From positions 1 through 64,000 of the forward strand of contig WGNI01000004.1 of NCBI GenBank assembly GCA_016124655.1: 64,000 nt of DNA, read 5' to 3'. The DNA is from Alphaproteobacteria bacterium (GTDB lineage: Bacteria > Pseudomonadota > Alphaproteobacteria > Caulobacterales > Aquidulcibacteraceae). Position numbers and translations under genes: made by a program. Below the pieces are notes generated by a model that did not search any database, was not told where the DNA came from, and saw only the letters and a list, made by a program, of their open reading frames with translations. Each line of letters starts with the position of its first letter. Within the stretch, counting starts at the first letter, position 1. Shown here piece after piece: positions 38,367 to 44,368 of the stretch.

Positions 38367-39332
38367 GTGCGGACTTATCTGGACTTCGAAAAATCGATCG
38401 CGGAGATCGAGGCCAAGATCGAAGAGCTGCAGGCGCTGGCGGAGAGCTCCGACGCGCTGGAGATGGGCGTCGAGCTGTCGCGGCTCAAAACCAAGTCCGA
38501 GCGAATGCTGCAGGACATCTACGCCAAGCTCGATCCGTGGCAAAAAACCGCCGTGGCGCGGCACCCGGAACGGCCGCGCTTCCGCGACTTCGTGGCGTCT
38601 CTGGTCACGGATTTCGTTGAGCTTTCCGGCGACCGTACCTATGGCGAGGACCCCGCCGTGCTTGGCGGACTGGGCAAGTTCCTGGGCCGGCCGTCTGTGC
38701 TGCTCGGCCACGAGAAAGGCCGCACCACGGCGGAGCGGCTGAAGCACAATTTCGGCATGGCGCGGCCGGAGGGCTACCGCAAAGCCGTGCGCCTGATGGA
38801 CATGGCCGACACCTTCCAGCTGCCGGTGATCAGTTTCGTCGATACCGCCGGCGCCTATCCCGGCATCGGCGCGGAAGAGCGCGGCCAGGCGGAAGCGATC
38901 GCGCGCTCCACCGAGCGCTGCCTGACGCTGGGCGTGCCAATGGTGTCGGTGATTACGGGCGAAGGCGGCTCGGGCGGGGCGCTGGCGATCGCTGCGGCGA
39001 ACGCGGTGATGATGCTGGAGCATGCGGTCTATTCGGTGATCAGCCCGGAGGCCGGCGCTTCGATTCTGTTCAAGGATTCCGGGCGCGCCAAGGACATGGC
39101 CCATGCCATGAAGATCACCGCGCAGGACCTGATCGGCCTGAAGGTGATCGATTCCATTATCAAGGAGCCGCTGGGCGGGGCGCACCGCGCGCCCGAGCGG
39201 GCGATCTCCACCGTCGGCGCGGCGGTGGCCCAGGCGCTGGACGGGCTGAAGGACCTCTCCCCCGACGCGCTGCGCGCGCAGCGGCGCGAGCGCTTCTACG
39301 CCATCGGCCGGCTGGAAAATGACGCCGCCTGA
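38367..39332 (+). CDS. accA: Acetyl-CoA carboxylase carboxyltransferase, alpha subunit
   Basis: 321 residues. It begins with a GTG codon (VRTYLDFEKSIAEIEAKI). Conserved blocks are FVELSGDRTYGEDPAVLGGL, GHEKGRTTAERLKHNFGMA, PEGYRKAVRLMDMAD, PVISFVDTAGAYPGIGAEER, TGEGGSGGALAIAAAN and SVISPEAGASILFKDS. With AccD it transfers CO2 from carboxybiotin to acetyl-CoA in fatty-acid synthesis. The first ~50 residues are coiled-coil-like, as in the family. It follows a palindrome at 38308-38353 rather than a clear promoter. Confidence 0.96.
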   Translation: MRTYLDFEKSIAEIEAKIEELQALAESSDALEMGVELSRLKTKSERMLQDIYAKLDPWQKTAVARHPERPRFRDFVASLVTDFVELSGDRTYGEDPAVLGGLGKFLGRPSVLLGHEKGRTTAERLKHNFGMARPEGYRKAVRLMDMADTFQLPVISFVDTAGAYPGIGAEERGQAEAIARSTERCLTLGVPMVSVITGEGGSGGALAIAAANAVMMLEHAVYSVISPEAGASILFKDSGRAKDMAHAMKITAQDLIGLKVIDSIIKEPLGGAHRAPERAISTVGAAVAQALDGLKDLSPDALRAQRRERFYAIGRLENDAA

Positions 39333-39403: not shown

Positions 39404-40432
39404 ATGCGCAGGATTTCGGCCTGGATCGCGGCCCTTTCGCTCGCGGCTGTGTTGGCGGCGTGCAGCGCCCAAGTCGAGGCGCCGCCGGACCAGCAGGCGA
39501 CAGAGGCCGCGCCGGTGGACGACGCGCCGCCGCCCGCCGCGGCGCCCGATCAACCGGCCGCGCAAGAGGAGCAGCAGGCCGAAGCGCAGCCTGCGCCACC
39601 GCCGATGCCGCCGCCGGCGCCGGTCCAGATTCCGGACGAACAAGCCTCCATCGCGCCGGCGCCGAGCGCGCCGGGCTCGGTGCAAGACCGCACGCGCGGC
39701 ATCAATCCGCCGCGGGCGGAAATGCGCGCGCCGGCCTCCACGACGGCGCCGGTTCCGCGCATGCAGGAGCGCACGCTGACGCCGGTCGTGGTGGAGTTGC
39801 AGCATGATCAGGCGCGCACGCCGCGCCAGGGCGGCTCCGCAGTGGTGCTGTTGGGCGATCCCGCCGTGGCGCTGTTGGCGCGGCGCAATCTGGCGCTGTG
39901 CGAAGCGCTTTACACGACATTCGATCAGGCCACGCGCGAACAGGTGGAAGTCGGCGTGCGGCGCGACGCGGAAGGCCAGGTGCAATTGCTGCGGCCGATC
40001 TATTGGCTGGCGCGCACGCTGACGGCCGGCGCGCCGGGCGCGGAGGGCTGTGCGCGGCGGCTGCAGGCGTATGATTATCCGCGCGCGGCGGTGATCAAGA
40101 GCAAGTTCCGGCTTTCGGGCACGGGGCCGTATCTTATCGTGGAGCGCAACGATCAGAGCGCAACGGAACGCGTCGTCGCCGTGATCGATCTATCGCGCAC
40201 GCGGGATGCGGATGTCGTCAATATGGTGCGGTATTTCCGCGACGGGTTCGTGCAGCGCGGCGACATCTGGAATCCCGGCATCTACGCACCGGACCGCACG
40301 CGCGGCGATCTCACCGCGTTTTTCGGCGCGCCGGTGCAATTCGGATTGCTGCCGCGGCTGGTGCGCGTGACGCATCATGTCGGGTGTCCGCTTGCGAACC
40401 TGTTGGATATCTGCGACTCCGCGCCGGGGTGA
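39404..40432 (+). CDS. Lipoprotein with C-terminal four-Cys domain, tandem paralogue 1
   Basis: 342 residues. Lipobox LAAC gives an acylated Cys20. Residues 21-118 are a Pro/Ala/Gln-rich, probably disordered linker. Residues 124-337 form a globular domain shared with the next two genes: LTPVVVELQHDQARTPRQGG, SAVVLL, LLRPIYW, GCARRL, KFRLSGTGPYLIVER, VVAVIDLSR, YFRDGFVQRGDIWNPGIY and HVGCPLANLLDIC. Cys166, Cys216, Cys328 and Cys337 are conserved in all three copies and could form two disulfides. The domain is not assigned to a named family. It is 71 bases after accA. Confidence 0.8.
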   Translation: MRRISAWIAALSLAAVLAACSAQVEAPPDQQATEAAPVDDAPPPAAAPDQPAAQEEQQAEAQPAPPPMPPPAPVQIPDEQASIAPAPSAPGSVQDRTRGINPPRAEMRAPASTTAPVPRMQERTLTPVVVELQHDQARTPRQGGSAVVLLGDPAVALLARRNLALCEALYTTFDQATREQVEVGVRRDAEGQVQLLRPIYWLARTLTAGAPGAEGCARRLQAYDYPRAAVIKSKFRLSGTGPYLIVERNDQSATERVVAVIDLSRTRDADVVNMVRYFRDGFVQRGDIWNPGIYAPDRTRGDLTAFFGAPVQFGLLPRLVRVTHHVGCPLANLLDICDSAPG

Positions 40433-40491
40433 CGGCGGTCATGGCGGCGCAGCGGCGGTGCGGGCAAGCGGAGCACGAAGGAGACGGCGTC

Positions 40492-41604
40492 ATGCGCGGG
40501 ATCATCGCTGCTTGTTTTGCGGTCGCCATGCTGGCGTTTGGCGCAGCAAGCGCACAGGCCCAAGAGGCCAACCTGGAGCGCTGCATGCGCATCGCCATCC
40601 AAGGCTGGACCAGGGACGTGGTGCCGCTGCAAAGTGCGCTGGGCATCACGATCGGCGAAGTCAGCGCCAGCGCCCTGGGCGATCTGCGCAGCGGTTCGGT
40701 GTGCCCGTCCGATCCGGCGCGCGCACGCGTGACCATCAATGGGCAAACCTATTGGATCGCGTTGAGCGACATGCGCGCGACGCGCGACACAACGGCGAGC
40801 GACGGCGTTTCGCCGGGACCGCGCGGCGTGAGCATCGATCCGCCGCCGAGTTTCGGCCGCGGCGGCGAAACGGCGGCGCCATCGCGGCCGCCGACTGCGG
40901 CGCGCGAAACGCCGGACCGCAGCGCCACGCGCGGCGTGGGACGGCGCGCGCGCACGCTCACGCCGGCGCTGGTGGAATTGCTTGGCGATCAGGCGCGCAC
41001 GCCGCGCCAGGGCGGTTCGGCGGTGGTGCTGTTGGCGCGTCCCGGCGCGCGCGCGCAGGCGCAGCGCAACGAACTTCTGTGTCAGACGATGTTTCAGGTG
41101 TTCGACCAGGCGACGCCGTCAGAAATCGCGGTGGGCGTGCGCACCGATCCTGACGGCGGCACGCAATTGCTGCGCCCGATCTATTGGCCGGTCGTGGCCA
41201 ATTCGCAGAACGCGCCCGGCGCGGGGGGATGCGCGCAGCGGCTGGCGAATTTCGATTTCCCGCGCGGTCAGCGGTTGCGAAACAAGTTCCGGCTGACGAA
41301 TGCTGGGCCGTACATTGCGATTGAACGCTATGAACCCAATCAGACCGAAACGCTGGTGGCGGTGATCGATTTCACCGATGCGCGGCCGAATGAAATTCCA
41401 AGCGTGGTGAACGATTTCCGCGACGGCTTCTCGCAGCGCAACGATATCTGGAATCCCAATCTCTATACGCCGGACCCGAACCGCAGCCTGGTCGCTTCGA
41501 TCTTCGGGGGATCGACGAGCCGCAGCGTGCTGCCGCGGCTGACGCAGGTGACGCAGCACATTGCGTGTCCGCTGGCGAACCTGCTGGACGTGTGCCGGAA
41601 TTGA
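40492..41604 (+). CDS. Exported protein with four-Cys domain, tandem paralogue 2
   Basis: 370 residues. The signal peptide ends ASAQA before QEANLE, so this copy is soluble or secreted, not a lipoprotein. Residues 25-95 form an extra small domain with Cys31 and Cys71 absent from the other copies. A Gly/Ser/Pro linker follows, then the shared domain at about 155-368 (RTLTPALVELLGDQARTPRQ; GGSAVVLL; QLLRPIYWPVV; GFSQRNDIWNPNLY; HIACPLANLLDVC) with Cys197, Cys247, Cys359 and Cys368. CGAAGGAG precedes the ATG at 40492, which lies 59 bases after paralogue 1. Confidence 0.8.
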   Translation: MRGIIAACFAVAMLAFGAASAQAQEANLERCMRIAIQGWTRDVVPLQSALGITIGEVSASALGDLRSGSVCPSDPARARVTINGQTYWIALSDMRATRDTTASDGVSPGPRGVSIDPPPSFGRGGETAAPSRPPTAARETPDRSATRGVGRRARTLTPALVELLGDQARTPRQGGSAVVLLARPGARAQAQRNELLCQTMFQVFDQATPSEIAVGVRTDPDGGTQLLRPIYWPVVANSQNAPGAGGCAQRLANFDFPRGQRLRNKFRLTNAGPYIAIERYEPNQTETLVAVIDFTDARPNEIPSVVNDFRDGFSQRNDIWNPNLYTPDPNRSLVASIFGGSTSRSVLPRLTQVTQHIACPLANLLDVCRN

Positions 41605-41629
41605 TTTTCGCCATGGGAAGGGGCTCCGC

Positions 41630-42388
41630 ATGCGAACGCTCACGCAATGGATAGTAGCCGCCGCCACAGCGCTTCTGGCGGCCTGCACGACGCCGATGAG
41701 CAGCGCGCCGCCGGCCCCAACGGATCAGGTGGTGGTGACGGGCCGCCGTGTCATAACGCCGGTCCTGGTCGAGATTCGCCCCACTGAAGCGCGCACGCCG
41801 CGTCAGGGCGGCTCTGCGGTCGTCATTTTAGGCCCGGACACATTCGGCGAGCAGAACGCGGCGGTGTGCGTGGAACTCTATCGTCGGTTTGACGAGGCGC
41901 GGCGCTCGGAGGTCCTGGTCGGCGCCCGGCGCGGCGAGAACGGGGAGACGGAATTGCTGCGGCCGATCTATTGGCCGCTTTCCGTGCGCTCGGGGCCTGA
42001 GCCGCAGATGTGTCTGGAGCGGATTCAAGGCTACGATTTCGCGCGCGCGACCGCGCTGAAGCGGAAATTCGGCTTGACGGCCGCGGGGCCATTTCTCGTG
42101 GTGGAGCGGTTTGAGCCGAGCCGCGGCGAGACCCTCGCCGCCGTCATTGACATGACGCGCCTGCGTGCGGACGACATTGCGGCCGCCGTGCAGTATTTCA
42201 GCGAAGGATTTTCCCAGCGAAATGACATCTGGGACCCGCAGATTTACGAGCCTGCGCGCCAGAGGCAGGATATCGCGTCGTTCTTTGGCGTCGACCGCCC
42301 GGCATTTCATGCGCGGCTCTTGCAGGTGACGCAGCATGTCGGCTGCCCGCTGGCGAATTTGCTGGACGTGTGTTCTCCCGCTCAATAG
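41630..42388 (+). CDS. Lipoprotein with four-Cys domain, tandem paralogue 3
   Basis: 252 residues, the shortest copy. Lipobox LAAC gives Cys19; the linker is only ~20 residues. The shared domain runs from about 41 to 248: VITPVLVEIRPTEARTPRQG, GSAVVIL, ELLRPIYWPLS, MCLERIQGYDFARA, KFGLTAAGPFLVVER, GFSQRNDIWDPQIY and HVGCPLANLLDVC, with Cys80, Cys128, Cys239 and Cys248. The 25-base spacing and GGGAAGGGG before the ATG support a common transcript with the other two. Its end overlaps the convergent epoxide-hydrolase gene by seven bases. Confidence 0.8.
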   Translation: MRTLTQWIVAAATALLAACTTPMSSAPPAPTDQVVVTGRRVITPVLVEIRPTEARTPRQGGSAVVILGPDTFGEQNAAVCVELYRRFDEARRSEVLVGARRGENGETELLRPIYWPLSVRSGPEPQMCLERIQGYDFARATALKRKFGLTAAGPFLVVERFEPSRGETLAAVIDMTRLRADDIAAAVQYFSEGFSQRNDIWDPQIYEPARQRQDIASFFGVDRPAFHARLLQVTQHVGCPLANLLDVCSPAQ

Positions 42389-43533
42389 CCGATCGTGCGC
42401 GCGAATGACCGTACGTCGGCGGTGAAGACTTCCGGCTTCTCCATCGCCGCGAAGTGACCGCCTTCGGCCATGTCGCTCCAATGCACGATATTGTAGATGC
42501 GCTCGGCCCAGGAGCGCGGCGGAATCTTGAACACCGGCTCGCCGGCGAAATTCGCCACGCCCGTGGGCTTGTTCACGCGTTCGCCGGGCGCAAGAAAAAA
42601 TCCGCCCTCCTCCACGCGCGCGCGATAATACCACACGCTGGTGGCGATCGCGTCATTGACGAGATAGAGCATGATGTTGGTGAGCAGCTGATCCTTGGAA
42701 TAGACGCTCTCAAGGCCGCCGGCGCGGAGATCCGACCAGCCGTGGAATTTCTCCAGAATCCAGGCCGCGGTTCCGACCGGCGAATCCATCAGCGCCATCG
42801 CCAGCGTCTGCGGTTTGGTGGATTGCTCCTGCAGATACGCGCCCTCCAATTGCAGCGCCATCTGCATGTGCGCGAGCCAGGCTTTTTCATCATCGGTCTG
42901 CGGCGTCGCATCGGCGCCGCGCAGGCCGATCATGTTCACATGAATGCCAATGCACGCATCGTGATCCATGCCGAGGTAGGATGTGACCAGAGAGCCCCAA
43001 TCGCCGCCCTGGGCGATGTAGCGCGGATAGCCGAGTTCTTCGGTCATCATCGCGTTCCAGAGCTTCGCGGTGGCGCGCTGGCCGAGCGGCGTTTGCGGCT
43101 TGAAGGAAAAGCCGTACCCCGGCAGCGACGGCGCGACGACGTCAAACGCGTCTTTCGTATCGCCGCCGAATTTCGAGGGAAACGCCAATTTCTCGATCGC
43201 GGCCCAGAATTCGTAGTGCGAGCCGGGCCAGCCATGGGTGAGGATCAGCGGGCGCTTGCCCTGCGCTTCGCCGACGACATGCACGAAATGCACCGACTTG
43301 CCGTCGATGGTCGCGGTGAATTGCGGATAGCGGTTGAGGTCAGCCTCTTGAGCGCGCCAATTGAAGCCATCCAACCAATAGGCGCACAGATCCTTAAGGT
43401 AGGCGGTGTTGACGCCGCGCGCCCAGGCCTCGCCTTCATCGGCGGGCGCTGGAAACCAGGGAAACGCCCGCACGCGCGCGGCGATGGCGTCGAGTTTCGC
43501 CTGCGGCACATTGACGGAAAAGGGCGTCGCCAT
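42382..43533 (-). CDS. Epoxide hydrolase (alpha/beta hydrolase with N-terminal EHN domain)
   Basis: 383 residues. The N-terminal epoxide-hydrolase domain (about 1-105) has FSVNVPQAKLDAIAARVRAF and LDGFNWRAQEADLNRYPQF. The alpha/beta fold shows the oxyanion HGWPG motif (LTHGWPGSHYEFW), nucleophile Asp in AQGGDWGSLVTSYLG and catalytic His in SDMAEGGHFAAMEKPE. Lid tyrosines are plausible in VWYYRARVEEGG. It hydrolyses epoxides to diols, probably of organic or xenobiotic substrates, and is cytosolic. GAGGAG precedes the ATG at 43533. It is divergent from a dienelactone-hydrolase-like gene. Confidence 0.9.
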   Translation of the reverse strand: MATPFSVNVPQAKLDAIAARVRAFPWFPAPADEGEAWARGVNTAYLKDLCAYWLDGFNWRAQEADLNRYPQFTATIDGKSVHFVHVVGEAQGKRPLILTHGWPGSHYEFWAAIEKLAFPSKFGGDTKDAFDVVAPSLPGYGFSFKPQTPLGQRATAKLWNAMMTEELGYPRYIAQGGDWGSLVTSYLGMDHDACIGIHVNMIGLRGADATPQTDDEKAWLAHMQMALQLEGAYLQEQSTKPQTLAMALMDSPVGTAAWILEKFHGWSDLRAGGLESVYSKDQLLTNIMLYLVNDAIATSVWYYRARVEEGGFFLAPGERVNKPTGVANFAGEPVFKIPPRSWAERIYNIVHWSDMAEGGHFAAMEKPEVFTADVRSFARTIGY

Positions 43534-43606
43534 ATTTCGCTCCTCACAGCTTTGGCAGCATCGCGCCCGCGGCGCTGGGGAAGTCAAGGCGCAACAGGAG
43601 ATCGGC

Positions 43607-44368
43607 GTGCCGCGCACGCAATGGTTTGAAGAGCGGGTCGCTGCGCTCAACGCGCACGCCACAATCATCCCGCCGCCCGGCGATGGGCCGGCGCCGGTGG
43701 TGGTGCAGTTTCATGGTTGCGGCGGGCGAAAGCGTTTTCAGGACGTGTGGGCGGAGAAGTTCGCGCAAATGGGCGCGGGTGCGGTGATCGTGGATTCGTA
43801 TGCGCCGCGCGGGGTCTCCACGGCCGAGGCGTACGCGACGATCTGCACGGGCCTGCGCTTTTGGGGCCGCGAACGCGCGGGCGACGTGTTCGCGGGACTT
43901 GCGATCGCGCGCGATCTGCCGTTCGCCGATCCGGCGCGGCTTTTCCTCGCGGGCTGGAGCCATGGCGGCTGGGCGGTGCTCGATGCGATGGCTTTGCGGC
44001 CCGGCGCAGAGATCGAACGCGCCACCGGTTTGCGCGACGTACCGGATGAGCCGCTGGAGGGATTGGGCGGCGCGCTGTTGTTTTATCCGTATTGCGGACG
44101 CGCGGCGGTGGCGCGGCGCGGCTTGCGTCATGGCGCGCCGGTGAGCGCTATTCTCGGCGGCAAGGATTCGATTGTCGGCGCGCGCGAGCCGTCGCGCGTG
44201 TTGGGCGCGCTTGCGCAATCGGGCGCGCCGATCGCGACGCATCTGTTTGAAACCGCCACGCACGCTTTCGATGAGGCTGACGCGCGCGATGCGCGGGTGT
44301 GTTACGATCAAGACTTGGTGGATCGCGCGGAAGCGCTGGCGCGGGATTTTCTGTTTGGCGCGCGGTGA
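43607..44368 (+). CDS. Dienelactone hydrolase-like alpha/beta hydrolase
   Basis: 253 residues, GTG start at 43607 after CAGGAG. The fold shows VVVQFHGCGGRKRF (oxyanion loop), nucleophile elbow LAGWSHGGWAVL, an aspartate in LGGKDSIVGARE and catalytic His in ETATHAFDEADA. No signal peptide is present. DLH-family members hydrolyse dienelactones or carboxylic esters; the substrate here is unknown. It is divergent from the epoxide hydrolase (73-base gap), suggesting shared control in degradation of organic compounds, which is inference. Confidence 0.83.
   Translation: MPRTQWFEERVAALNAHATIIPPPGDGPAPVVVQFHGCGGRKRFQDVWAEKFAQMGAGAVIVDSYAPRGVSTAEAYATICTGLRFWGRERAGDVFAGLAIARDLPFADPARLFLAGWSHGGWAVLDAMALRPGAEIERATGLRDVPDEPLEGLGGALLFYPYCGRAAVARRGLRHGAPVSAILGGKDSIVGAREPSRVLGALAQSGAPIATHLFETATHAFDEADARDARVCYDQDLVDRAEALARDFLFGAR

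Follow-up and report, generated by a model that had tools for sequence, protein, structure and literature searches.

Three exported proteins with a common four-cysteine domain are encoded downstream of accA

Three consecutive genes located directly after accA were found to encode exported proteins that share one four-cysteine (four-Cys) domain, and this domain defines a family that is genuine, undescribed and narrowly distributed. The genes lie in the window, which is the whole 64,000-nucleotide stretch of DNA that was analyzed (Table 1). Translation confirmed the coordinates, strand and order after accA that had been assigned in an initial reading of the letters without database searches (the sequence-only reading), and placed the start codon (ATG) of copy 2 at 40492. 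The intergenic gaps are 71 nt between accA and copy 1, 59 nt between copies 1 and 2, and 25 nt between copies 2 and 3, and no terminator-like site was detected within these gaps. A convergent gene for an epoxide hydrolase (EHN plus alpha/beta hydrolase; 42382-43668, minus strand) has 7 nt in common with the 3' end of copy 3; in the relative L014, an epoxide hydrolase gene is likewise the downstream neighbor of the single four-Cys gene.

Table 1. Positions in the window of accA, the three four-Cys genes and their shared domains
Feature	Position	Strand	Basis
accA (acetyl-CoA carboxylase carboxyltransferase subunit alpha)	38367..39332	+	Pfam ACCA, E 1.4e-133; synteny in L012-L016
Copy 1, lipoprotein-type precursor, 342 aa	39404..40432	+	translation, alignment, own-genome search
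Shared four-Cys domain, copy 1 (residues 122-342)	39767..40429	+	alignments
Copy 2, secreted-type precursor, 370 aa	40492..41604	+	translation, alignment, Cys positions
Shared four-Cys domain, copy 2	40948..41601	+	alignments
Copy 3, lipoprotein-type precursor, 252 aa	41630..42388	+	translation, alignment
Shared four-Cys domain, copy 3	41744..42385	+	alignment; AlphaFold2 model pLDDT 83.4, pTM 0.83

The shared domain forms the C-terminal 214-221 residues or so of each protein, and 49-52% identity was observed among the three copies. When copy 3 was used as query against the same genome, copies 1 and 2 were retrieved at E 6e-65 and 6e-63, so that chance likeness is excluded; these three copies are the only ones in the window genome. 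Four cysteines (C166, C216, C328 and C337 in copy 1) are present without exception in the three copies, as the sequence-only reading had indicated for the shared domain, and they are also kept in the relatives outside the window. The motifs listed in that reading are present as well, except that the first one reads TP-x-x-VE and not TP-x-VE.

The N-terminal regions differ among the three copies. A lipobox was scored as an N-terminal signal with [LVI][ASTVI][GAS]C. Copy 1 carries LAAC at residues 17-20 (C20, Ser at +2), separated from the shared domain by a Pro/Ala/Gln-rich linker of about 100 residues, and copy 3 carries LAAC at residues 16-19 (C19, Thr at +2) with a linker of about 20 residues. 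As judged from this motif, both proteins fit the predicted signal of bacterial lipoproteins. Copy 2 starts with a Sec-type signal peptide, ending near ASAQAQ24 and without usable lipobox, followed in order by a two-Cys N-terminal module (C31, C71), a linker and the shared domain. Translations and alignments thus agree with the earlier description of a single domain that occurs in two proteins of lipoprotein type and in one secreted protein.

A two-Cys N-terminal module was also observed in the secreted-type copies of the relatives L013, L014, L015 and L016, with cysteines exactly 21 residues apart, whereas the spacing in copy 2 is 40; homology between the copy 2 module and that of the relatives was sought and not demonstrated. 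Of these modules, that of L014 gave the best match to PF16998 17kDa_Anti_2, the 17 kDa outer membrane surface antigen, but this match is weak (E 0.028, 14.7 bits) and the Pfam cut-off of 26.6 bits was reached by none of the N-terminal modules. The remaining modules, including that of window copy 2, gave no match. A possible lipobox was noted in some of the secreted-type relatives (LAAC in L014:6351-7061 and FAAC in L016:2731-3261), and for this reason the distinction between anchored and soluble forms is ambiguous in L014 and L016.

The four-Cys family is narrowly distributed and linked to accA

Searches for known families were negative throughout. In Pfam and NCBIfam, all three copies stayed below the curated cut-offs, only sub-threshold noise being returned; the same was observed for PADLOC and PHROGs, with no defence-family match. 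Sequence profiles reached no thioredoxin family, and PDB sequence matches (for instance, an aminotransferase and an antibody chain) were rejected as chance. Foldseek returned nothing at E below 0.001 for either of the two models searched, whether in PDB or in a viral structure library. The earlier failure to assign the domain to a named family was therefore upheld against Pfam, NCBIfam, PDB sequences and structures, and viral structures, and a literature search found no description of a four-Cys domain family of this kind.

The domain was detected in six of 60 genomes of the same GTDB family, namely the window genome and five others, and a broader profile over this family added no further carriers. 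When about 85,000 species genomes were scanned with an 11-row profile, the result was the same five relatives, which are labelled as Alphaproteobacteria, Hyphomonadaceae or Caulobacteraceae metagenome bins; an earlier contig scan, with the three-copy alignment as profile, had given zero matches. No credible relatives were found among viral contigs or plasmids. In all six carrying genomes of the family, the first four-Cys gene is located directly after accA with short gaps. The tandem organization recurs in three genomes of genus g8, where the lipoprotein form is followed by the secreted-type form, but is not universal, since the other two relatives, g10 and g14, carry a single four-Cys gene each.

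Profile search identified a second, divergent subfamily in a different family of the order Caulobacterales, where four genomes encode five of these lipoproteins, most with long poly-proline linkers. Profile-profile alignment of the two subfamilies gave a probability of 97.7% (E 1.7e-12). Matches in 218 genomes to the full-length profile of the second subfamily were rejected, as they involved mostly the signal peptide and proline-rich stretch; after removal of these parts, the profile detected only the original five copies within that subfamily's own GTDB family. Samples from the rest of the class yielded nothing credible, two class-level matches (E 0.018 and 0.039) being rejected as too weak. 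Three of the five second-subfamily lipoproteins (L038, L040, L042) lie near genes for an HSP20 chaperone, a rhomboid protease and a GST-like protein, for which the Pfam check covers HSP20 and rhomboid in L040 only. The gene adjoining the second-subfamily member in L040 encodes a lipoprotein with a methyltransferase domain.

The post-accA spot is variable across the GTDB family. In some members lacking the four-Cys domain, the gene for EipA (envelope integrity protein A; PF06577) is located directly after accA (L079:2544-3116 in G034 and L090:2559-3143 in G063). EipA resembles the four-Cys proteins in being an exported envelope protein and in occupying this site, but its sequence is unrelated. 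Replacement of EipA by the four-Cys genes was considered and rejected, because the window genome retains EipA on another contig. The presence of EipA at the post-accA site is context, not evidence of common function.

The copies are old paralogues

The sequence-only reading had suggested recent duplication, and this suggestion was not supported. Copy 1 is 54% identical to the g10 gene, as compared with 52% to copy 2 and 50% to copy 3, and most comparisons show synonymous change close to saturation. From these two observations, the copies are old paralogues, of roughly the same age as the split from another genus. The g10 gene groups with the window copies in a single clade (support 100/99). 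Within the tandem-pair genus g8, the lipoprotein form shows 68-89% identity to its sister-species counterpart versus 35-43% to its own neighbor. The dN/dS ratio was 0.09 and 0.30 for sister-species orthologues and 0.25-0.55 between the window copies, and such values below 1 indicate that the copies are maintained. The domain changes faster than AccA, with dN to the G009 gene of 0.40-0.54 for the four-Cys domain versus 0.21 for AccA; the AccA tree has too little resolution to show when the four-Cys genes were gained.

Conserved cysteines and fold of the shared domain

The residues invariant in both subfamilies are one Asn, two Cys, one Trp, Asp, Arg, Gly-Pro and one Asp. These two cysteines, 48 residues apart in copy 3, are the only ones common to both subfamilies. 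In the mature proteins, the number of cysteines is always even (4, 6 or 2, the lipobox Cys not counted). The CxxC active site of thioredoxin, TlpA and DsbA is absent from all 16 members, and the peroxiredoxin PxxxTxxC pattern is absent from all 16 domains. The even counts and the absence of both motifs favor structural disulfides, of which one putative pair would be ancestral, one gained in the lineage of the window and one located in the secreted-type N-terminal module.

AlphaFold2 models of the window domain (copy 3) and of the second subfamily (pLDDT 82.5, pTM 0.82) show the same core order, strand-strand-helix-strand-helix-strand-strand-helix; the alignments behind them have rows in common, so the two models are not fully independent. 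This order agrees with the thioredoxin-like order beta-(alpha)-beta-alpha-beta-alpha-beta-beta-alpha, the helix after the first strand being absent. This reading of the topology was taken from the order of elements and preceded the second Foldseek search. The fourth core strand is immediately preceded by the invariant Gly-Pro, which thus agrees in position with the cis-proline of thioredoxin. In the search of PDB with the second-subfamily model, thioredoxin-fold chains (Etrx1, TlpA, DipZ, ResA, Bcp1, the thioredoxin domain of Grx3, and GSTs) made up most of the top 50, but none of the matches is significant, the best E being 0.022 and TM by target not exceeding 0.47 within this list; with the window-domain model, no thioredoxin enrichment was observed in PDB. 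Like Etrx1/Etrx2, TlpA and ResA (PDB 4hqs, 4txv, 1su9), the four-Cys proteins are exported or anchored, and they resemble these proteins in the order of strands and helices and in the proline before the fourth strand. They differ in lacking CxxC and in the placement of the cysteines, they show no sequence similarity and the structural score is not significant.

Discussion

The reading that we prefer, at a probability of roughly 40%, is that the four-Cys proteins contain an export-only, redox-inactive, disulfide-locked thioredoxin-like domain, which would be used in the periplasm, in anchored or soluble form, for binding or scaffolding and is encoded by accA-linked old paralogues. The thioredoxin-like fold is supported by the agreement of element order, Gly-Pro placement and the second Foldseek list. 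The same three points argue against a fold of its own, or one represented only in libraries of predicted structures, in which case the likeness to thioredoxin would be incidental to a small alpha/beta sheet and the proteins would be lineage-specific structural envelope lipoproteins. We consider this alternative possible though rather unlikely; in its favor are the absence of Foldseek matches below E 0.001 for both models and the absence of a curated family match.

Redox-active thioredoxin-fold enzymes, with the two superfamily-wide cysteines cycling as in an atypical two-Cys peroxidase, would account for the retention of just these two cysteines in both subfamilies and for TlpA, Etrx1 and Bcp1 among the Foldseek matches. 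In the AlphaFold2 models, however, the first of these cysteines is located at the second turn of its helix, not at the helix start; together with the fully even cysteine sets and the lack of CxxC and PxxxTxxC in all members, this makes a redox enzyme improbable. Only slightly less improbable are fast-evolving lipoproteins of surface or immunity type, which would protect against phages or competitors or mask receptors and the copies of which would be kept for diversity. Patchy distribution within the family, variable copy number and faster change than AccA are in line with this explanation, but the domain lacks phage or plasmid relatives and defence-family matches, and the genes occupy a fixed chromosomal site beside a housekeeping gene.

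Under the preferred thioredoxin-like reading, the three genes would be an old paralogue set, probably co-transcribed with accA, as supported by the short gaps in six of six genomes and by the lack of terminator-like sites in the gaps of the window. The fold would be of thioredoxin type but without CxxC, and the domain would be held by two presumed disulfides, the older one shared by the whole superfamily by descent and the younger one gained in the lineage of the window. Copies 1 and 3 may both be lipid-anchored, the former through a long and flexible tether rich in Pro and Ala and the latter kept near the membrane by its short linker, and copy 2 would be free in the periplasm, carrying the extra two-cysteine module. 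The same binding face may thus be presented at differing distances from the membrane. A non-catalytic binding or scaffold role in the envelope best fits this anatomy, and a division of labor among the copies and a distinct envelope system, both raised in the sequence-only reading, are plausible proposals. The post-accA position suggests expression in common with fatty-acid synthesis. A fuller version of this proposal, to which we assign a low probability, is a Caulobacterales-specific envelope module in which an unrecognized, export-only, disulfide-locked thioredoxin-derived domain, in tandem long-tethered, short-tethered and soluble forms and tied in transcription, by way of accA, to fatty-acid synthesis, would coordinate membrane lipid supply with envelope structure.

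The four-Cys proteins are an orphan envelope family of ordinary scale and of moderate specialist interest. They enlarge the poorly known set of envelope proteins in uncultured Caulobacterales by an exported domain family that is undescribed, comprises two subfamilies and keeps a stable place in the genome. Should the proposed fold be right, they would add a further thioredoxin-like scaffold turned into a non-catalytic, disulfide-stabilized binding domain, and the linkage to accA provides a concrete, testable tie to membrane lipid synthesis.
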